Shown piece after piece: positions 1-10,880 of a stretch of DNA of 10,880 bases. This DNA is from Amoebophrya sp. AT5.2 (Eukaryota > Sar > Dinophyceae > Syndiniales > Amoebophryaceae): the NCBI GenBank assembly GCA_005223375.1, contig RXOD01006232.1, positions 1 to 10,880 on the forward strand. The letters are read 5' to 3'. A program made the position numbers and the translations under genes. The notes beneath the pieces were generated by a model. It ran no database searches and had not been told where the DNA came from. It saw only the letters and a list, made by a program, of their open reading frames with translations. Every line of letters starts with the position of its first letter. The stretch's first letter is position 1.

Positions 1-3000
1 GCCATTCTTCATCTACACTCGCCAGAAGAACTGGAAACAGCAGTAGGAATGGGTGTTCCCAATAAGCGCGAAGCAGAAGTAATATTGCGAGACGGGGTCG
101 CATCGATTGAGCAGATCGACAAGATACTTGCTGCGCATGGGGCTGCGGCGATGATATTACGAGCCGAGCGTTGGCCGGGGAAACCGGGACGCGTGGAGGT
201 CAGGGAACGCGATCTCTTCTGTGCAGTGCAAATTGGAGATCCGGTAGCGGCTGCAACTGCTACTTTGGCAGTAGGGCCAGGCCGCAGAGAGGTGATACGC
301 GGTTCAGTTACTTGCCCCCCGCACAAATTTCATGCGGCCGATCTCTCATCGTCGTCGGTGCACGACGTAAAGGTTCAGGAGAACAGCGCGGAGGAAGTAG
401 TTATCGCGCCACCGCCGCATGACGAGGAGGAGAAGACAACGCTGGAGCACAATGTTGAATCTCATTGCAGGCCGTCCTTAGGTGACGATAAATCTTCGCC
501 GCCGGTCACTCTACTGCAGGATATCGGGGCTGCGCGGCTTCCGGAAGGAGGACATTTTTCGGCGCTGAAAATGAACGATGAAAAGCAAATGGGGCGCAGA
601 AAGGTGGAGCCCTCAGGAGGAGACGGGCTGTCGACAGGGTCGGTAGGATCACGCCCTTTACGAGATCATGGATACAACGCGGGTCGGCTCGTACGACCGG
701 AATCGCTGCAACGCGGGCAGAACGCTGGACCGCGGACCGCGTCATGCGTGCAGATGTTACGGGGACCGCTAGGGCCACAGCGACGCGCGGAAGAAATGGA
801 GGATAGAAAGCGGATGAAGTCGGCGGATACTGGTTTCCTCCGACGTTGGGGAAGATACAGCGTGGTTCTCAAACCGCCGAATCCAGCGAAGTATATGCAT
901 GGTGCAAGGCGGTGTACCGCGTCGCGCCCGATTTCGGCCGGCAATACGCAGGGACGTCTTCGTGGTGCAGCATACAGCAAAAAGTCGGAATCGCTGCATC
1001 ACACAGATACAACTGCTGAACATGTCTTCCGGAGGAGAGCTTCAAGCGAATCGTCGGCGAGACGCTGCGATCTACTTCTTCAGCTACCTATCCGCGGAAG
1101 AAGAAACCGTGGAAGTAAAAACAAGGCGATCTGTGGTGAGCCGATAAAGGACGAGGCGGTCCGGGGCAAGTGGAGCAATGTTCAGCGCGAGACTTTCCTG
1201 GCGTTTGTTGCCATGCTGACCGAAGATACGGCGGGCGGCGAGACGGCGAAGGGCGTCCACGACAGGAATGGCGACGATCTCACTTTTGCGTTTGCAAATC
1301 CGGACTGTTGCGGATCCAAGCCGATAGCACGGAGGTGGAACACGGGCACCGTCATGTTCCAGAATCAGTCCGTGGGGGCTGATCTCGACGCGGCGTTGGC
1401 GGGTTTTATAGCAGGCGAGACTACTGCACTTCGACTGCGTACTACGTCGTGGAAAGGCGAAAACTGGAAGGTTCAACCTGGCTCCGCATCCGCTTCATCC
1501 CGTGCTTCTTTTGCCGCTGAAGCAGTAGTTCCTCGTGCGACAGGACAGGCACCGCAGGCGCTGACATCTGGACGAACACCTGCTCCATCACTCGCAACTA
1601 ATATCGGGATGGATTGCGCGGGTCAAGGGGCCGAGGAAGAACTAATGTCGACGGGAGCAGGGAGTAGACGTGAAGAATGCGGGGCGCTACACGATCGGGA
1701 CACGCGGTCACCCCGCGCTTCATCAAGGACCGGCAGTCGAGCAGTTGACGCCAGGTATGCGGGGGCCGCTTCGTCAATATCTTGCATTCAAGCCGGAGTG
1801 GGGTGTAGGCGGACGTCGTCTAGGAGGAGGAGAAACGATAGCCGGCACGGTCGTCGCTACTACAAGAAGTCGAGGGACAGCAGGCGACGATCTCGCAGTG
1901 GTTGTCGCTCTCGTCGTACTGATCATCGAGAGCAACCTTACCGCGATATCTCACGGGAGGCACACCAGCGAGGTGGCCATTCTTTTTCTTCCGCCCGTTC
2001 CTTGCACAAGGATACCCCAGCAGGGGAGGACGACGTTAGGACTCGTATGCGACTGCGGGTAGAGCGGCACGATAGTAGACGGCGGTCGTCGAGAAGAAGG
2101 CGCGACGATGACGACGGGCAGCTAAAGGATGAAGTGTCAACCGGTTCAGGTGAAGTGGAATGGCGCCCGACCTCGGCCGCGCGTGTTGATGGACTGAGTA
2201 GGAATACCTTTGCTGAAGCGGCGAGGGAGGCGGTTGATCACGGTAGAGCGGACGAGCTGAACGTGCTGCACTATGTGTTGGCGGAAGGGCTGGCCGGTGC
2301 GGAAGCGGATTGGGTACGGTCGATGATCTGTCAAAGTTCCGCGTTGAACGCCTACACTACGCGGTGCGGCGCTCATGTAGTATTCGAGTTCGGGTCGCAC
2401 CGCTTGGCGAGTACTTTCGTGCTCAACTACGATGGGGGTGCGATTGGCCTTCAGGGCAACGATGAGGTGGATCTGAAGCTTAAACTGGCGCTTTGGGATG
2501 GGGACCCATCCACGCTGGTGCGCTCGTTCTCCTCGACGTTCGTGGCCCGGAAAGACAACCAACTGCCAATTCGCGGAGGCGGACGGCAGACACTTTCCAG
2601 CACGCAGGAAGGTCATGATGATGCGAAGACCCCGGTCCTGAAAAGGCGTCGTGTTGAGGCGGATGGAAAAACGCTTGGTGTACAACATGAGGCGGCGACA
2701 TCTGGCGCCGGAATATTTGCAGAAGGATACGCCTATGTTTTGGCATGTTGGTTGGCTGATGTGCCAGTCGACTGGATTCGCGACATCCTGGAACAGTCTC
2801 CGGCTCGGCATGCGTACATCACCGAGTGCAAGTTACATGTCGTTTTTGCATTTGCTGATCAAAAAGATGCAGATTCGTTCGTTGAAGTATTTGACGGTGG
2901 CGTAGTGGGACCGCCCGGACCGTACAACAGCAACTGCGACCGTGCTCTACATTTAACGCTGTGGGGCGGACCTACGAGCGGGCTCGTTCTAGTAGCGTCG

Positions 3001-6000
3001 ACGGATGAAGCGGTGCCGAATGTGGTACGAGGCGTCATCGATTCTGAGCGATTCTGCGTCCTCATTGCTCTCTGCATTGCTGGTGGCTGGCAGGGGGAGT
3101 ACGTGGTCGAGACGCTGAAAACAGCAAATCTGGAAGAAATCGTGGCCACCGGCGATGTATATTTGCGGCACTTCCCGGTTATTGCGGCGGCATTTTCGGT
3201 CAACATTGCATTGCGGGGTGTCGTACAAAAATTCTTCGCGTCTCCAGTTCCTCACTGCAAGACAATCGCGTTGGAAATCTCGCTGGCAGATTCGAAGGAA
3301 TGCCTCCATGCGGAACCGGTTTGCGACGATTCCACCCTCTTCTCGACTGCTGCGCGGGCTCGTACCCTCAACGAATTTTTTGAGCTTCAGAGGCGGTTGC
3401 GGTGGGCGGCGGCTTGTTACGTCTCGAGTACAAAAAGTAGCGACGCGTCGTTTTCACCAGCCGATCTCCCGGTGCGCGGGTTGTTGGACACGTGCACTCT
3501 GACTGGGATAGATCTCACGGATGAAGATGCAGCTGAACATCCTGTGACGAATAGTAGCAGTAGTGGAATGCATCGACTCGAGGACTTCAACTTCTGTACG
3601 CTCGACCCGAGGTTGCCGGCGGACGGGTGCCAGGACGAACCTGTTCATCGCGTCGACTGGAGCACGCGCTGGGTCGATGCGGGTGTTGCAGTACCAATTT
3701 ACCGTCGCGATGGGGTCACCAACTATGGCTTTACCCTGCCTGAAGAGGTGTGGGATGCTGTACGTGTGATCTTATCAGGGGCGGTGCCGACTTCGGAAGA
3801 AGCAAAGGAACGAGTACGCAAGGCGGTGGAGGGGTGCCACTTCGTACTGCAGACCACGGCTAAATTTGCAGATGAGGAGATTGTGCAACGAGCGCCTGCC
3901 GCAGTATACGATTGCATTCGTGCCCGCATGGATCAATCGTTGATTGGTGCATGCGGTATGCATATCAAGTCGGACGACGCGGACGCCGTGGTGTTATGGC
4001 TCTCGCACTCGATCTTTGCGGAAATCCCTCCGTCGATGGACAGCTTTACGCATGTGCTACCGCCTCAACAGGGGTGTCAACGGGGCATTAATGGGAGTTA
4101 CGTTGGCACGCCGTGTATGGACAACACCATTCCGCTTTTTCCAGCTGCGGAGCAGGACATTCTGCCGTCTGAAGAGTATGTCCGAGCGTGCAAGTACTCG
4201 TGCAAGGTGTTGGAAACACACCGGTCGGGGCGGCCAGTGCCGGTAACCTGCAATCCTCCGGCTAAATCGTCGCTAAGTCCAAAACGTCCTGCGGAACACG
4301 CGTCAGGATCGGGGAAGCGAAGGCGTGGTGATGCTGATGATGGTGTAAGACCTGCAGAAAGGGACGACGGTGCGGATGCAAAGGACCGGAACGCTTTGAA
4401 TCTTGAGGATAAGTGTGGCGCTCGGAACCGTTCTACTGCTGGCGACGGAAAGAAGAATGCAAAACGATCTTCATCGACGGTCGGGCAAAAGATGAAGACT
4501 ATGAAGTCGGGAGGCGCAACTACGGTTTGTCATGCGCTGATGGACGGTTCGCTGCACTCGGAGGTTGCAGGCGGAGGTGAACCAATTTTAGAGGCAGTAG
4601 GCATGGAAGTAGATGCGGAGGTAGAAGTTGCAAAAAAGGATAAGGTGATGAAGAAGGGCGGAAGAGGCGCATCCTCTATGGAGAGCAACAGTAAGGTCGA
4701 AACGAAAGCGCTGCCAGCTGTGAGCAAGCAAAAGATGAAAGTGATGAAGACAAACGGTACTGCGTCGAGCAAAGAAGGGGCATCGACGGCGCCCGTGGTG
4801 TCCGAGGCGCGGTCTGATACGGGTGCGGCAGCTTCATCGTCGAGAAGGATGTTAGTCGGCGTTGCCACGCGTCCTGAACAGATGCGCTTCCAGAGTCCTC
4901 TGTTGTCGCATGATACGACGCTGGAGGACCGCAAAATCTACAAGACAAAGGGCGCGCCGGTCTTCAACCCGGAGTGTCCTTCTGCGTCAACACCATACGG
5001 GGCGTACACTACGGCAGAGTGGTTGAAGAAAAGCAAAGCCCAGAGAAGGGAGAAGGAGGACTTCTTTGGGCGCAAGATATCGGGGGATGAATGGAGGCAA
5101 CTGCAGAAGCCGGAGAATACATCGCTGCGGGAGCAGTGGATCAACGGCGAGATGAAGTGCCAAAAGGGTATTGACAAAGCAAAGCTGTATGGTCAGTACG
5201 CAGAAAGTGATTTCCTGCATGAACCTCGCGTCCCGACGGACCGCCCGTGTCGCGAATTGCTGGACCCAGCTGGAGCCACGTACGGGCAGCTGGCGGTGGG
5301 ATATGAAGATGAGCTTCAGCCGATATTCGTTGAAGTTTCGCTTCTTCAGCTTATGCTATCGCATATCGCCGAGGTGCGGAGATGGACGAGGACGTTGCAT
5401 CCGTCTACCAGTTTCGCGGCTGTTCTTAGCGATCCGTCAGCAGAGAAAAACAGCGAATGGGGCGAGATGGGGAAGTGCTGGATGAGCAGAGCCACGCACA
5501 TTCGATGGGGATCCTCTTTCGCGGAGCCCACGGTGTTGGCCAAGTACAAGCAGCACATACAACTACTGCCGACGTGGTCCGGCGACGATGTTACCGTGCT
5601 GATTCTCGCGATCATCGCGGCGTTAACTGAGGTTGCACCGGGCGACGACGACTACGGTACGACGCGGGCGCGGGTTGATGTGTGCGTTGCTGCTGCTCGA
5701 GAAATATGGCATCGAGTTGAGGTCTCTTATCCCGCGGGGATGAAGATCACGGCGGGTGAAGTTTCTCGCATGAATCTGGCGCTGTACCGGAAGGCAGAAG
5801 GAGTTCTTCAGGGTCTGGCGCATGTGGATCATCTGCACCTGGCGGCATGTCTTCGGGGTATCATCAGCGGCCATGCGGACACCTACTTCAGTTTCAGCAG
5901 CAGATATGGGGACATCTGGCAGTCTCTTGAACCGGGCTTCAGCTTCTGGGGGAACGTCCTGCCTGTGCTGGACCAGTTCTCAGAGGGACCGGTGGCGGTA

Positions 6001-9000
6001 GCCGAGTCAGAAAACAGCCCGTGCACATTCATCACGCAGGCGGTAGCTGATGCGGTCGAAGTGGTTCGCATCTTCCGCGACATCTGGCCCACGGGTATCC
6101 TACCGTCGCACTCGCTGTTGTTGGGTGACTGCAACTCGGGCCGAGGGCTTCATGGTGAGCACGCCGTGGATACTGAAGGAATGGGAAAGGCGGCGGAAAA
6201 TCAGCTGGCACGCGACCAAGCAGCTCCGTGGCGCGACAGCGAGTGGTTTCATACCATGCGGAAGAACGACGGATATCGCAACATGGGACTTTCGGAGGCT
6301 GTTGTTGCGGTTGCTACGGGTAGGATAGCCGAAACAGAATTGCCCGGGGTTCTGGATAAGGAGGCTTTTGCGATACTTCTGGCGATGGTTCTGCGGGGAG
6401 CTATATTCCACGCGCCGATATTGTTTACAGCAAACAACCAGGTGAATGTGCAGAGCAAGGTCGACTGCTTTGGGCATCTGGTGGGCGCGGAATCGAGCAA
6501 GGAGATTACGCGGCACATCTTCGACTGTACAGCGTTGCGGTACGTCGTACGTACATCGACCGTTCTCCCGTCCTCAGTACGTGTTGTTGTCGGATGCGAT
6601 TTCTTCGCCGACAATGCATACCCGCAGCGAGCAGGACCACACGGGGATAAGCTGAAGGACGCGATTGGTGCAGCAAAGGGTGGCAGTGCCACTACCGAAC
6701 AGACGGAGCTCGTGACGATAGAGCAGCGGCGCCGATGCGGATCTGCAGGACGTGATTTGGCTGCTGCTGGGGTCAAGGCTTTTCTCGAGCATGACTCAAC
6801 AATCGGCGGCGACAACTCTGGGACCGAATTTCTCCGCCAGTGCCGCCGCGAGTTGTACTGGCTCCAGTACTCTCTTCGTAGAGATGGGCATGGATGGTGC
6901 GTGGTTGCTGCATGTGAGCTGGCTGAAATGCCGAGTTCGACGTGTGAAGTTCAAGACCGAGAAGATGCGCTGTACTTGGATCCAGACGTGGCGGCACCAG
7001 TGCCGTGTAAGACGAAGTTTCTGTATAAACGCAGGGCGGAAGAAGCACGGGTGGACTACGCACCGGTATCCAGGGCGGTGTGGGAGTACTGCCTGCCGCT
7101 CGTCGTCGACGAAATGGTGCGCACGGTGGAATGGCTGACGGCAGATCGCTCATACAGACGGGCATATGTTGACGACAAAAGCGGGGCTTTCGTCTCCCGG
7201 CTGGTTAAGACGAATTGGCGGACGACAGAGGATGGCCGGCTGAAGAGTCTGAGGCGGGATATGGAACTACCGTCTGAAACGCTTCGCTGGAGGTGGTTGG
7301 CGATGGTGGAGCTGATGAAGATGCCGGGAGGCGGGAAGGTGTTGGGTGGTACGCGGGATATGATGCGGATGTGCGCGACGGTGTGCTGCTGCATCCTTTA
7401 CCGTACTGCGACCTCTCGGGCATCGCCTCTACGGGAACACCTCGTGCCGTCAACACGGCTGGAACCGCTTCCGCTTCCACTTGATTTCGCTCGCGACGTC
7501 GGCAAGTTGGCCGAATCACTATCGGATGACGGTGCAACAAGGATTGGAGGTAGTGCTTCACGCGGTTTTGAACTAATGCGACTCAACGCAGGGGATCTGC
7601 GGCGCATGGCTCGGGCTACAGGTCGTCGTCTTCTTGTTGGATGCGATGCCGCGGTGGGGCTGATACATTTGCTCATGCCGGGTATTGGAAGACCGGTGAC
7701 CGGTGATCCTGCGTCTTGCATTGATATGCATCAGGTCATAGCTGACGCCTACAGCATGATGACGGTTGCACTAAAGGGGCCGTCGATCTACGATCACACG
7801 TATCAAGGCCTACGGTGGGGTGGAGCTTTTTGGAGGCGACATACTTTCTCCTCGCTACTGGTTCTTCTGGCAGGTGAAAGGGCGGTGCCAGAGGCGGAGG
7901 CGGTGCAGGAGGGGCTTGAAGATGATGAGTGGCGGGTACTCCGGCTACATATGGACGTGCCGTTTACCTTCCTGTCCGATGCTGTGCATCCAGTACGGCG
8001 TGATACGACTGCGCTACCGTATCCTGCTGTTCCGTGTGGCGAGCTGTGCCCTCAGTTCCGCCTCGTCAGCAGAGTGATATGGCATGATGCGTGCAGGGGC
8101 GACACGGCGTCGCTCACGGGAAAGTGCTGGTCGTGGGCGACGTGGAATGACCTGCACTCCGTGGGGGCATCGGAGCTGGTCACTCTCGCGACACCGTCAT
8201 CCCGGCAGCGTATCGAGACCATCATGCGCAGAATGTTGGTGGAAGGAGAGCAGTCGCCGTCACTACTCCCGGAAGGGTGGTGGCTGTACCCGGAGTGGGC
8301 TTGCCAGGCGATGAGCAACGAATCACTTGAGCTGGGGGTCTATTTTCCGCTGATGAAAATCAGGGGCGATGTTTGCGGTGAGGATTTGCAGATGTTCAGG
8401 GAAAGCCTGTCCGGCAGGTCCGAGACTGAAGCTGATGTGGATGAAGCGGCATCGGGGGATGTGCAGCTGCTAGAGGAGGACTTGGACGGAGAGAGCGGCA
8501 GGGGAAAAAATAAGCAGGGGGGCATGAAGCGTGATTACGGGATGGCGCGGGCACGGTGGCCGACACCCTCGTGTTGGGCAAGAATTATGGTAAGCGACGC
8601 TACCTGTTCTGCTACCCTGCGGAAAATGGAAGGCGAATTTCTTCGGAGGCTGCGCGTGGAGCTGGTGCGGTGGTCTGACTGCCGCGAGAACTTCATTAAC
8701 GAGCTGCAGATCTTCAAGCGCGATACTTCGTTGATGCGGAAGCGACGCGAACCGCCGAACAACCCGAAATATCATGTGCGGCAGCGAAGCTACGCGATGT
8801 GCAGACAGCGGATTATTGCAACTGGATCATTAATGGTGCTGGCTTTCGCAGGCTGCACTCGAGATAACGGGGGCCGGGTGCCGGACGGGGTCGGTTTGAT
8901 CAAGGAACGGTGGCTTCATAACATCCGGGCAGCGATCGACGGGACGCGACTTTTTCCGCGATGTGTTGAAGGAATTAGTGTGCCTATGGATGCGTGTAAC

Positions 9001-10880
9001 CAGTATATTGCCACGGCGGCGCGACTGGCTGACGCGTGCATGGTGGAGATGCATGAGTTGCAGGAGAAATTCGGCGTGGGTTGGAATGGCGCGTCGAATA
9101 TTCTGGGCTTCCTCGAGCTCTTCCCCTTCCTCCGCGTCAATCCCTTTGCCGGGGGCTCTTATTTCGTCCTGCCGTCTACCAAGCAGTGGCCGGCACATCG
9201 CAAAGCGGCGCTGATGGCGGTATACAAGTTGTGGCTGCTGCTCTTTTCGAACTTGCAAATCGCTTATGGGATCAGCGACGCGATAGCGAAAGAGGAATTC
9301 GTGAGGACGTATTCGCTATTACGGCAGAATGTGGTTATGCGCGGGTTTGCGCCGCAGCACGGGGTCCGCCTGAAAAAAGTCATTGCTGTGGCTAAGGCGG
9401 GTGATGGCCGGCGTGCAATGGATATCACGGAAGCGGAAAGTGTTTGGGTATCTTTTCTGGAGGTACTGGGTGCTGATGAAGGGGACTCGGTGCCGGTCGC
9501 GAATGAAGTTAGTGGTCTGGATGTCGAACTGGCAGGTGGTGAGCCGGCCGGTGCAGATCCGCAAACATCGACCCGACCTGCTGCAGGAGATGTGCTGTCG
9601 CCTTCGCGGGCTGCGGACTTGGAACGGTACCACATACGCCACCCCACTTCGGGCAGTCTCTGCTTGGAGGATTTACCGTTTCGAGGAAAGGGCAAGGGAT
9701 GCTCTGAACCAGATGCTGCCGCCGCGACCACCTCATCTTCTTCTACTGGCGGGGGTGTTGATCTTGGTGCACGGCCGCCGGTTGTGGAAACCGCCCCCGA
9801 CCAGCAGGTCTCACACGTCGTTGGCAGGAGCGAGGTGGCGACTACTAGCGGGGGATCCGCGCAACGCGCGGCTGGTGTGGCGGTCGCGAAAAACGAGAAG
9901 TCCCCATTCCACTGCACGGGCGATAGCGACAGTGACGACTGCGGAATGCCCTTACCATCACCCGCAGTTCCCGAGTCCGCTGCAGACCCTGGCGACCGGG
10001 ATTGCATAGCAGCTTCTTGTGCGGTGGACGCGATGCATGTTGGCGCAGCACGAGAATACGAGCCCTACGATCCTTACGAGGACTACAGCGGGCTTGGAGA
10101 AGTAGCAGCCTGGAACTACTCTCCGGCCGCTCAGGGAGAAGTAAAAAGGATGCAAGAAACTAAACGCAGGTTCTGGAACCGCCGTAGATCCGCTACCTTT
10201 GCCGAAAGAGTCGCCAGCTCCTCTGATTGCGCGCTCACCTCCGACGCTACCGACGGCCCAATCCTCGACTGCAAGGCTACCTCGGAGGTTGCGGATTGTC
10301 CTCACCTGAGTGACGCCGACAGCGACTGCGTGGTGTTCCTGCCGCCGACGAGCGCGGCTGCGGCTACCAATGAAGGATTAACGCTTGGCGCTGCCGTCGC
10401 GACCACCTCAGCTTCTTCGACCGTCGGTAATCTTGATTTCGGTGCACGGCCGCCGGTAGTGAGAACCGCTCCCGCCCCGCAAGACTCGTGTACCGTTTGC
10501 AGGAGCGAGGGTGCGACTAGTAGCGGGGGATCCGCGCAACGCGCGGATGAGGTAACAATCTCGTCTTCTTCTACTGGCAAAAGCACGGATTTCCTCGCAC
10601 GACCTCCAGCAGCGCCGGCTATCCCGCCCCCGCATGTGTCCGACACCAGCGGCAAAGACGCAGCTTCAGTTACGAGCGGGGGATCGGCGCCTCGCCACTT
10701 GGCGTTATTCGCAGACCATGGCGACCGAAACAGTACAGCAACAGGCGGCGAGGACGACATGGATCATTTTGGTGCCTCAGCCATCGCTCAGGCCACGACA
10801 CTATGGCGAGCACGGCGAGAGCGAGAGGGAAGTTTATCGTCACGAAGACATTCCGAAGGGGGCGAGAGCAGCGTGGCGGC
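1..10880 (+). CDS. Internal part of a giant uninterrupted ORF; modular protein of unknown function
   Basis: Frame +1 is open from the first to the last base: 3,626 codons without a stop, and both ends run off the window. The first in-frame ATG is at 49-51, but the frame is already open upstream and a folded-looking motif begins before it, so it is not taken as the start. Every 60-base block was read codon by codon. The other two + frames and all three - frames are broken by frequent stops. The translation alternates compact segments rich in hydrophobic residues, Trp and Cys with disordered Ser/Ala/Gly/charged linkers, as expected of a real multidomain protein. Visible elements are a helix-hairpin-helix-like motif, an Arg/Ser tract, a duplicated RRM-like module, nuclear localisation signals, Lys-Met motifs and C-terminal repeats. 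No enzyme signature was recognised. It could be a giant host protein or the polyprotein of a large mobile or viral element. That it is coding is near certain; its function is unknown. Confidence 0.95.
10..144 (+). other. Helix-hairpin-helix-like segment (ComEA-type pattern), residues 4-48
   Basis: Residues 4-48 follow the pattern of ComEA-type double helix-hairpin-helix units. A 'SPEELE' opening leads into a Gly-x-Gly hairpin (AVGMGVPNKREAEVIL), followed by a short turn, 'SIEQIDKI' and a second 'AAHG' turn. In that family the pattern is an 'asxEEL..lpGiG...A..I...R' block followed by 'SvedL..v.Gi', and the fold binds DNA backbone without sequence specificity. Here the second Gly-h-Gly turn is degenerate (AHGAAA), so the match is partial. 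A conventional protein of this type would carry it as an accessory DNA-binding domain. The assignment is by eye and could be an unrelated helical segment. Confidence 0.4.
181..1140 (+). other. Disordered, basic linker of the giant ORF, residues 61-380
   Basis: This stretch of the same frame is rich in Arg, Ser, Gly, Pro and Glu and has few hydrophobic runs. It includes a Ser run with an acidic patch (about residues 116-145) and Arg-rich patches around residues 261-285 and 343-370. Only a short piece near residues 278-300 (RRWGRYSVVLKPPNPAKYMH) looks capable of forming a compact element. I recognise no domain. It probably spaces the N-terminal motif from the first compact region and may contact nucleic acid through its basic patches. 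Confidence 0.5.
1141..1440 (+). other. Small compact segment of unknown family, residues 381-480
   Basis: Hydrophobic and aromatic residues recur at regular spacing here (for example ETFLAFVAML, DLTFAFANPDCC, TVMFQNQSVGADLDAALAG), unlike the linkers on either side, so a small folded domain is likely. The 'LTFAFA' strand-like piece faintly recalls the 'HVVFAF' strand of the two repeat modules further on. The rest does not align, so I do not call it a third copy. No catalytic motif is visible. Confidence 0.4.
1804..2103 (+). other. Arg/Ser-rich (SR-like) tract, residues 602-701
   Basis: The frame becomes dominated by Arg and Ser with interspersed Asp, His and Tyr: RRTSSRRRRNDSRHGRR and SRDSRRRSRSGCRSRR, then HDSRRRSSRRR near residue 700, followed by an abrupt acidic DDDD. 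Similar RS dipeptide stretches in SR splicing factors are phosphorylated and mediate RNA and protein contacts in the nucleus. Here the tract lies about 55 residues before the first of two RRM-like modules, the reverse of the usual SR-protein order, where RRMs come first. Some short translated frames on both strands over this stretch follow from its composition and are not genes. Confidence 0.75.
2272..2514 (+). repeat. Repeat module 1 of a duplicated ~82-residue domain (RRM-like pattern), residues 758-838
   Basis: This module aligns without gaps for 62 positions to residues 912-973 downstream, with about 29 identities by hand. Both start YVLA..LA and share DW(V/I)R, QS.A..AY.T.C, HVVF.F, A..FV and DGG..G, and both end near a matching LW.G. 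The order of elements looks like a small alpha/beta fold: strand, helix around DWVR, strand, a 'HVVFEF' strand, a helix around LASTFVLNY, then DGGAIG. This resembles the beta3-alpha2-beta4 half of an RNA recognition motif, in which an aromatic-rich strand is followed by a helix with Ala and a Gly turn. The homology between the copies is seen directly; the RRM assignment is inference. Confidence 0.7.
2632..2655 (+). other. Monopartite nuclear localisation signal candidate, residues 878-885
   Basis: PVLKRRRV lies in the disordered linker between the two repeat modules. A Pro-containing lead followed by four consecutive basic residues fits the classical Myc/SV40-like importin-alpha signal, which supports a nuclear location. 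Such short basic patches are common, so on its own it is suggestive only. The second, bipartite signal further on strengthens it. Confidence 0.5.
2734..2979 (+). repeat. Repeat module 2 of the duplicated domain (RRM-like pattern), residues 912-993
   Basis: This second copy starts 154 residues after the first. It reads AYVLACWLADVPVDWIRDIL, then an AYITEC strand, then HVVFAFADQKDADSF and DGGVVG, close to the 'strand, acidic helix, Gly turn' order of an RNA recognition motif. It has one more residue than copy 1 near the end (GPPGPYNSN against GLQGNDEV). Identity over the conserved 62 positions is just under half, so the duplication is old compared with the C-terminal tail repeats. The conserved DW(V/I)R and C..HVVF.F positions are probably structural. 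It could instead be an unrelated alpha/beta domain. Confidence 0.7.
2980..4230 (+). other. Compact region of unknown family, residues 994-1410
   Basis: After module 2 the frame stays compact for about 415 residues, with hydrophobic helices (for example FCVLIALCIAGGW, HFPVIAAAFSVNIAL, ELQRRLRWAAACYV) and a Trp-rich piece (VDWSTRWVDAGVAVPIYRR). A short Ser-rich break (NSSSSG, residues 1183-1188) may divide it into two domains. Cys residues are frequent but show no regular zinc-binding spacing. The region ends near residue 1410 at the start of a Pro/Lys/Arg-rich linker. I do not recognise the family. Confidence 0.45.
4282..4326 (+). other. Bipartite nuclear localisation signal, residues 1428-1442
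   Basis: KRPAEHASGSGKRRR matches the classical bipartite form: two basic residues, a short spacer and a second basic cluster. It opens with the same KRPA as the nucleoplasmin signal. The spacer is 9 residues, slightly short of the usual 10-12. It sits in a disordered linker, where such signals are accessible to importin-alpha. This is the best single clue that the protein is eukaryotic and nuclear. Confidence 0.65.
4489..4752 (+). repeat. Three dispersed Lys-Met motifs (KMKxMK type), residues 1497-1584
   Basis: KMKTMKS (4489-4509), KVMKKGG (4642-4662) and KMKVMKT (4732-4752) recur within 88 residues of linker. KMKTMKS and KMKVMKT share the K-M-K-x-M-K core; the middle copy is shorter and is followed by Gly-Gly as is the first by Ser-Gly-Gly. 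I associate runs of Met-Lys with low-complexity proteins of dinoflagellates and relatives, which would hint at an alveolate source. This is recollection of a style and not a match to a named family. Confidence 0.5.
4921..6660 (+). other. Long compact region of unknown family, residues 1641-2220
   Basis: This is a globular-looking region of about 580 residues. It begins with a basic segment (KTKGAPVFNPECP, then WLKKSKAQRREKEDFF) and continues with hydrophobic stretches (VTVLILAIIAALTEVA at 1864-1879, EAFAILLAMVLRGAIF at 2121-2136). A Gly-Asp-Cys motif (LLLGDCNSGRGL) lies near residue 2043, and Cys2156, His2159, His2172 and Cys2176 are spaced so that they could bind a metal. The final strand-like piece is SVRVVVGCDFFADN. 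The hydrophobic stretches are short, interspersed with Pro/Asp turns, and better explained as core helices or strands than as membrane spans. No family was recognised and no polymerase, nuclease or hydrolase motif set is complete. Confidence 0.5.
6772..8400 (+). other. Long compact region of unknown family, residues 2258-2800
   Basis: After a short Gly/Ala/Arg linker (about residues 2221-2257) the frame is compact again for about 540 residues. It is rich in Trp (ELYWLQYSLRRDGHGWC, LRWRWLAMVELMK, CWSWATWNDLH, EGWWLYPEWA), Cys and Arg. A basic surface is likely between residues 2340 and 2440. It contains RLLVGCDAAVGLIHLLMPG near 2543-2561, which resembles the SVRVVVGCDFF piece of the previous region for only about five residues. 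I cannot name a family. The high Trp and Cys content argues for a genuinely folded domain. Confidence 0.5.
8401..8550 (+). other. Acidic then basic disordered linker, residues 2801-2850
   Basis: An acidic stretch (SETEADVDEAASGD, then LLEEDLDGE) runs into a Gly/Lys/Arg stretch (SGRGKNKQGGMKRDYG). The switch from acidic to basic with no hydrophobic core marks a domain boundary. No processing site could be identified. Confidence 0.55.
8551..9480 (+). other. C-terminal compact region of unknown family, residues 2851-3160
   Basis: This region is mostly helical in appearance. It has a basic helix (LRKMEGEFLRRLRVELVRW), a basic patch (LMRKRREPPNNPKYHVRQR) and the strongest hydrophobic stretch of the window at residues 3070-3091 (ALMAVYKLWLLLFSNLQIAYGI). 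That stretch is long enough to cross a membrane but contains Lys, Asn and Gln, so a buried helix is equally possible. The segment LMVLAFAGCTRDNG near residue 2945 looks like a bacterial lipobox but lies deep inside the frame. No family was recognised. Confidence 0.45.
9721..9870 (+). repeat. Tail repeat copy 1, residues 3241-3290
   Basis: This 50-residue unit runs from AATTSSSSTGG through the core GARPPVV to SGGSAQRA. It shares 35 of 50 residues with copy 2 without gaps. At DNA level the two copies have an exact 17-base match at 9766-9782 (= 10441-10457) and an exact 26-base match at 9846-9871 (= 10521-10546). Synonymous positions are preserved inside these blocks, so the copies duplicated recently or have been homogenised. 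Confidence 0.85.
10054..10095 (+). other. Tyr/Pro/acidic cluster, residues 3352-3365
   Basis: REYEPYDPYEDYSG has four Tyr in eleven residues, each next to acidic residues or Pro, within an otherwise Ser/Ala-rich tail. Such clusters can be tyrosine phosphorylation or short peptide-binding sites. No specific partner can be named. Confidence 0.35.
10309..10350 (+). other. SUMO-interaction-like motif candidate, residues 3437-3450
   Basis: SDADSDCVVFLPPT combines an acidic Ser-Asp lead with a short hydrophobic core (VVFL), the usual form of SUMO-interacting motifs in nuclear proteins. A related acidic GDSDSDDCGMPLP at 9919-9957 lacks the beta-branched hydrophobic core. The motif is short and degenerate, so this is a hint only. 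Confidence 0.25.
10391..10540 (+). repeat. Tail repeat copy 2, residues about 3465-3514
   Basis: This second copy lies about 670 bases after the first and keeps the same order: VATTSASST, then GARPPVV, then RSEGATSSGGSAQRA. Differences from copy 1 are scattered substitutions without length change. The matching blocks at both ends of the unit suggest that the whole unit was duplicated, and not only its low-complexity parts. Confidence 0.85.
10558..10695 (+). repeat. Tail repeat copy 3, diverged, residues 3520-3565
   Basis: This copy follows copy 2 almost directly. It keeps ISSSSTGK at the start, LARPPAAPA in place of GARPPVV, and TSGGSAPR at the end, but the middle differs and the unit is slightly shorter. 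The DNA for the final SGGS block still resembles the other two copies closely. A tandem placement with copy 2 suggests expansion by unequal exchange, and further copies may lie beyond the window. Confidence 0.7.

Follow-up and report, generated by a model that had tools for sequence, protein, structure and literature searches.

A stop-free frame spanning an entire dinoflagellate contig, probably an inner piece of a giant LINE-like polyprotein

What is encoded by a stretch of DNA in which a single reading frame runs from the first base to the last without meeting a stop? The window, by which we mean the whole stretch of 10,880 bases analyzed here, coincides exactly with contig C2436 of a draft assembly (50.7 Mb in 2,759 contigs), and its limits are not the product of a windowing choice. 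The contigs seen become shorter as their number increases, from 84.7 kb for C1 to 10.0 kb for C2759, which suggests that only those longer than 10 kb were included.

Coding nature and extent of the open frame

Frame +1 of the window (1 to 10,878, forward strand) contains 3,626 sense codons and no stop, and it is open at both edges, with its first ATG at base 49. The remaining five frames contain 107, 151, 73, 103, and 87 stops, and their longest open runs measure 112 to 266 codons. A period-3 peak, at 3.6 to 10.7 times the spectrum mean, was found in all 12 full 906-base tiles, and in 500 shuffles keeping the composition at each codon position the longest open run reached 377 codons. The recount, the periodicity, and the shuffles thus bear out the original prediction with respect to the uninterrupted frame, while its figure of about 170 stops expected by chance was too high: we obtained about 142 from the base composition, and the shuffles gave a mean of 108.5 with a minimum of 78. 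Frame +1 is a real coding sequence, written in A, C, G, and T only.

Where two copies of a segment can be compared, constraint at the protein level is visible from the distribution of differences over the codon positions. In particular, the internal duplicate described below (aa 757 to 843 and 911 to 999) differs by 0.43, 0.43, and 0.75 at positions 1, 2, and 3, respectively, and window aa 2454 to 2535 differs from its counterpart on contig C1046 by 0.32, 0.33, and 0.72. A less pronounced contrast is seen for the tail in common with C821 (14, 16, and 21%), as well as for the C-terminal repeat (14, 25, and 23%).

The first 28 bases of the window are absent elsewhere in the assembly at up to one mismatch, and the last 35 bases occur elsewhere in the whole assembly only in C821, with three mismatches; it follows that no overlapping contig extends the window, and the extension into flanking sequence that had been proposed found nothing to extend into. 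Since the window is a whole contig and its frame is open on both sides, the gene is observed without either of its ends, in agreement with the earlier statement that a terminal start and stop are missing. One uninterrupted coding frame spanning the whole contig also supports the view of an intronless, incomplete gene larger than 10.9 kb. To call such a frame exceptional for any genome was too strong, as the same assembly contains other stop-free frames of 2,000 to 3,400 aa.

Concerning the host, the 21-base dinoflagellate spliced leader, as given in PMC2606063, occurs at 50 sites of the assembly with up to two mismatches, 18 of them exact, compared to none for the reversed control, and the host is therefore a dinoflagellate. 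The copepod spliced leader is described as a different, 46-nt sequence. C1542 carries two exact leaders in the same orientation (10133 to 10153 and 13175 to 13195), separated by about 3 kb. On C39 (42668 to 47499), we could observe two tandem actin genes, and since each is matched in pieces, as by introns, the genome probably has introns. On several of the contigs examined, long frames follow one another on one strand, which recalls compact parasitic dinoflagellates, e.g., Amoebophrya, as described in PMC11453091 and PMC7789003.

Modules of the encoded protein

The features of the window protein all lie on the forward strand. Module N (aa 11 to 113; 31 to 339) is common to the giant frames of C821 and C1288 and also to C2689, C17, and C1065, with 26 to 34% identity. 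A probably disordered Arg/Ser-rich stretch with 36% K+R (aa 601 to 700; 1801 to 2100) is followed by a pair of RRM-like domains sharing 45% identity, the first at aa 757 to 843 (2269 to 2529) and the second at aa 911 to 999 (2731 to 2997), with an LPxRGGG motif after the first (2563 to 2589) that weakly resembles C821 aa 1485 to 1513. Short Lys/Met-rich repeats of the MKVMK type occupy about aa 1496 to 1586 (4485 to 4758). Further downstream, the segment of aa 2454 to 2535 (7360 to 7605) matches C1046 at 48 to 49%, with differences mostly in third codon positions; its counterpart (C1046:14887-15138, 48% identical) is an isolated fragment in a 150-aa frame, with no convincing neighboring match.

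The 3' part of the frame includes a TSGxLCLxDLPFRGxGKG motif (aa 3214 to 3242; 9640 to 9726), common to C821 aa 1485 to 1513, and contains three copies of a C-terminal repeat, at aa 3238 to 3293 (9712 to 9879), aa 3463 to 3518 (10387 to 10554), and, more diverged, aa 3518 to 3592 (10552 to 10776). Between the first two copies lies module FW (aa 3353 to 3408; 10057 to 10224), with the pattern DPYxDxxG..WNxSPxAxxEV...FWxRR, which is common to C821, C2705, C1288, C2532, and C1969. The tail (10651 to 10880) is collinear with C821, with 76% amino acid identity over 76 codons and 84% DNA identity over 222 bases.

The original prediction suggested profile and structure searches on each segment, and these yielded no sequence family and one predicted fold. 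The best model of the second RRM-like domain, made with both copies, reached a pLDDT of 68.7 and a pTM of 0.68, with the element order beta-alpha-beta-beta-alpha-beta, and the first 12 Foldseek rows are all RRM or RNA-binding proteins; four of the five models were poor. The fold of the first domain would follow from this same model of the second, built with both copies. With moderate confidence, the window may thus be said to contain two tandem RRM-like folds, and Pfam searches of the whole window and of its segments gave no RRM family sequence match. A correspondence between this pair and the RRM-like region of the related frames was considered and set aside as suggestive only, the hhalign E value being 0.0075 at a probability of 5%; weak matches at that region in C821, C1288, and C2532 had E values of 0.05 to 0.5, with the reversed control at 0.54.

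The other searches of the window gave no usable match. Pfam, applied to the whole sequence and to 10 overlapping segments covering it, returned at best PF23752 (E value of 0.019), below the cut-off and taken as a chance match, and none of its methyltransferase families matched. There was no significant match in PHROGs (best E value of 0.14), no NCBIfam match was used, and the best PDB sequence was an antibody chain (E value of 1.3). Rfam families at gathering score, tRNAs, and tandem repeats at default score were likewise absent. No relative was found in viral contigs or prokaryote genome contigs with six short peptide patterns, which reach close relatives only, or in phage records with aa 627 to 3626. 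Since dinoflagellate relatives were sought within this assembly, the lack of homologues outside it is weak evidence.

No reverse transcriptase (RT) or endonuclease was recognized in the window by Pfam (whole and segments) or by profiles built from the relatives described below, and the contig ends upstream of where these carry the RT. The strings GDCNSGRG and YVDD, which recall endonuclease and RT motifs, were rejected, as they had no profile support, and a structure of aa 2901 to 3130 modeled from the single sequence was discarded (pLDDT of 39). The earlier statement that polymerase signatures are absent thus holds for the window alone, while some of its relatives carry weak RT- or endonuclease-like segments.

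Related giant frames in the same assembly

Searching the assembly with aa 627 to 3626 gave eight places on seven contigs and with aa 1 to 1100 six places, the window included in both cases. The matches of the former in C2705 and C821 had whole-assembly E values of 5.4e-26 and 1.3e-22, respectively, and that of module N in C821 had a value of 5e-5. It follows that the earlier failure to match any known giant family stands with respect to Pfam, PHROGs, NCBIfam, and PDB, where nothing was significant, but not within the assembly, where giant frames forming a family are matched by the window at its two ends. These frames measure 3,421 aa (C2532), 3,088 aa (C1288), 2,869 aa (C821), 2,116 aa (C2705), and 1,461 aa (C1969), each being open at one contig edge. 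Those of C1288 and C2532 remain collinear along the greater part of about 3,000 aa, and large parts of C821, C1969, and C2705 follow the same order.

The window, C821, and C1288 each contain modules N and FW in one frame, N preceding FW, which is the arrangement by which we recognize the family, with module N at aa 11 to 113, 604 to 706, and 727 to 818, respectively. The module N matches are weak; the family profile scored 36.6 bits, compared to a best score of 15.2 in 2,000 shuffles of the window segment, and the module FW profile scored 62.9 bits, compared to 11.1. Other family block profiles were not counted: the match of the C2705 block starting at 541 to window aa 637 to 767 (E value of 3e-4) falls in the Arg/Ser-rich area, and the others, likewise outside N and FW (E values of 0.005 to 0.02), stand beside reversed-window matches of 0.027 to 0.049.

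The spacing between the two modules is about 280 aa in C1288, compared to about 3,200 to 3,240 aa in the window. The C1288 interval includes a well-conserved domain, with 81% identity to that of C2532, which has no match in the window with profiles built from the relatives. The middle of the window, about aa 114 to 3213, is nearly single-copy in the assembly, its only good match being the 82-aa fragment on C1046. The codon usage of the window correlates with that of the five relatives at 0.60 to 0.91, compared to 0.85 to 0.97 among the relatives themselves, with a noisy 326-codon tail.

Two of the related contigs show peculiarities of their own. In C2705, two overlapping forward frames, 971 to 3949 (993 aa) and 3804 to 10151 (2,116 aa), meet at about 3,850, with modules N and FW in different frames, a split that decay or a frameshift could explain. 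In C821, a segment of about 160 aa is duplicated in tandem (aa 1736 to 1897 and 1910 to 2071), with no Pfam match over the cut-off; a weak DUF2805 match in this frame (E value of 0.0047, below the cut-off) was left unused.

As regards enzymatic modules, aa 2783 to 2902 of C2532 match RVT_1 with E values of 0.029 (whole frame) and 0.003 (segment), and C2705 matches Exo_endo_phos with E values of 0.045 (whole frame) and 0.0022 (segment), in both cases below the Pfam curated cut-off. C1288 and C2532 align to the endonuclease-like part of C2705, with GDIN in all three and SDHAA in C1288 and C2532 corresponding to QDHAA in C2705. The RT-like blocks of C2532, DxxxCFD, QGTA, VVDDTE, and KCEAMVIG, are kept with small changes in C2288. 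We take all these blocks to be endonuclease and RT motifs, and, so aligned, they support the putative assignment of both activities in the relatives. The RT-like region of C2532 contains the strings YSDD and VVDD (aa 2873 and 2957), of which only VVDD is kept in C2288. By sequence, no solved structure was found for the C2532 RT-like piece, and Pfam returned no family for C1288, whole or as a segment, for the C2288 RT-like piece alone, or, with respect to RT and endonuclease, for C821, to which the window is most closely related at its 3' end and whose contig also ends.

The RT-like region of C2532 is found at 16 places of the assembly, itself included, and C2288 combines the RT-like part with the RRM-region module of the family in one frame of 2,695 aa. 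Considering the assembly as a whole, RVT_1 was found at 75 places, and 58 of these exceed the cut-off. The frames containing the 75 places have a median of 809 aa, and 6 of the 75 are in frames that reach 2,000 aa or more. Of the 19 places matching an endonuclease, 4 are in one open frame together with an RT place (C1956, C2248, C762, and C1544). We noticed no poly-A run in the bases after the C2532 stop.

A relic of the spliced leader, with one mismatch, was found in C1288. The TAG that belongs to the leader sequence closes the frame on the upstream side, and the 3,088-aa frame follows immediately, so that its beginning lies within the leader. Such an arrangement would be expected of a copied trans-spliced mRNA, although it is a single case. 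C2328, a candidate for a second leader-headed giant frame, was rejected, the 1.4 kb after its leader being full of stops. The window contains no leader relic at up to three mismatches, the 5' edge of the element lying outside the contig.

A proposed giant single-frame element and its alternatives

On these grounds, we consider it rather probable that the window is an inner piece of a giant, intronless, single-frame polyprotein belonging to a LINE-like retroelement family of the same dinoflagellate genome. According to this hypothesis, the element would be mobile: its transcript would receive the dinoflagellate spliced leader by trans-splicing, and the long frame would be translated as one chain, in which the RRM-like and other upstream modules may bind the element's own RNA and the endonuclease and RT modules near the C terminus, expected downstream of the contig, would nick DNA and copy the RNA into the nick. 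If the template for copying were a mature mRNA already tagged with the leader, both the missing introns and the leader relic at the start of the C1288 frame would be accounted for. About 3,200 codons of the window, including the two tandem RRM-like domains, would then be a member-specific block between N and FW.

The points against a LINE-like element are real, namely, the lack of a recognized RT or endonuclease in the window, its near-single-copy middle, and its somewhat different codon usage. The main rival is a host gene sharing modules with the family, i.e., a single-copy gene for a huge, modular, partly disordered RNA-binding protein that acquired N and FW by domain capture or descends from a domesticated element. 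The nearly single-copy middle suits such a gene as well, and so do the signs of protein-level constraint and the missing enzymatic domains; moreover, leader-tagged retrogenes are described as widespread in dinoflagellates (PMC12014239). Nevertheless, the modules at the two ends of the window occur otherwise in giant frames, of which some contain RT- or endonuclease-like segments, 222 bases at its 3' end show a DNA identity of 84% to C821, and the match on C1046 is an isolated fragment, so that we regard a host gene as unlikely, if a serious contender.

Another large mobile or viral polyprotein that is not LINE-like, such as an endogenized virus, could present a huge modular frame that lacks introns and matches no family, and the RT matches of the relatives are weak. 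We judge this origin improbable, given the best PHROGs E value of 0.14, the lack of relatives in viral contigs (where close relatives only would be reached) and in phage records (aa 627 to 3626), and the position of the endonuclease upstream of the RT in the relatives, which is the LINE order. Even less credible, although the contig is unverified draft sequence, is an artifact in the form of noncoding DNA open by chance or an assembly join of separate genes. The shuffles never approached the observed frame, the periodicity extends over every tile of a sequence free of ambiguous letters, and a join would have needed to keep the frame, with N and FW in the same order in the relatives.

Returning to the LINE-like element, the comparison with known systems indicates both likenesses and differences. 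The ORF1 proteins of APE-type LINEs (non-LTR retrotransposons) are described as falling into types I to V with modular, reticulate evolution, with RRM domains, sometimes in tandem, upstream of the endonuclease and RT (PMC4120745). Most LINE superfamilies are reported there to have ORF1 and ORF2 in separate frames, whereas C2532 and C2288 combine upstream modules and the putative RT in one frame. With respect to ORF1 type I, which has at least one RRM and a CCHC zinc knuckle directly downstream, the window presents the former, as a predicted fold, but a pattern search of the window and its five relatives found no such knuckle, and the window also differs from these LINEs in its lack of a recognized RT or endonuclease. 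The SymbioLINE-Dnmt elements of Symbiodinium are likewise dinoflagellate LINEs with gained coding modules, the extra module being, however, a cytosine methyltransferase whose ORF precedes that of the RT (PMC5890265). Dinoflagellate leader-tagged retrogenes resemble C1288 in that a remnant of the leader marks the 5' edge of a coding frame lacking introns (PMC12014239 and PMC2606063); they are described as copies of host mRNAs, while the C1288 family has a putatively RT-bearing member. No giant single-frame dinoflagellate LINE appeared in the titles and abstract openings of the literature searched.

Outside dinoflagellates, trypanosome LINEs such as ingi/L1Tc likewise encode the entire element in one frame, in hosts that use a spliced leader, but they are far shorter (about 1,600 aa).

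It is possible to go further and hypothesize that the family consists of one-frame LINE-like elements of extreme length, leader-tagged, copied from mRNA, and swapping multikilobase in-frame blocks between members, with a complete product of some 7,000 aa (about 21 kb), a size that is a sum from the relatives and not a measurement: about 700 aa precede module N in C1288, and about 2,600 aa extend in C2532 beyond the region where the window ends. We advance this fuller picture only tentatively and consider it doubtful as a whole.

Gene finders reporting only complete ORFs, together with current profile libraries, see almost nothing in the window. If the proposed reading is true, this genome would host very large single-frame non-LTR retroelements, in which RNA binding, nicking, and copying, along with thousands of unexplained residues, would be joined in one translated chain, and the trans-spliced leader at their 5' edge would tie the copying of mobile elements to the mRNA recycling of dinoflagellates.
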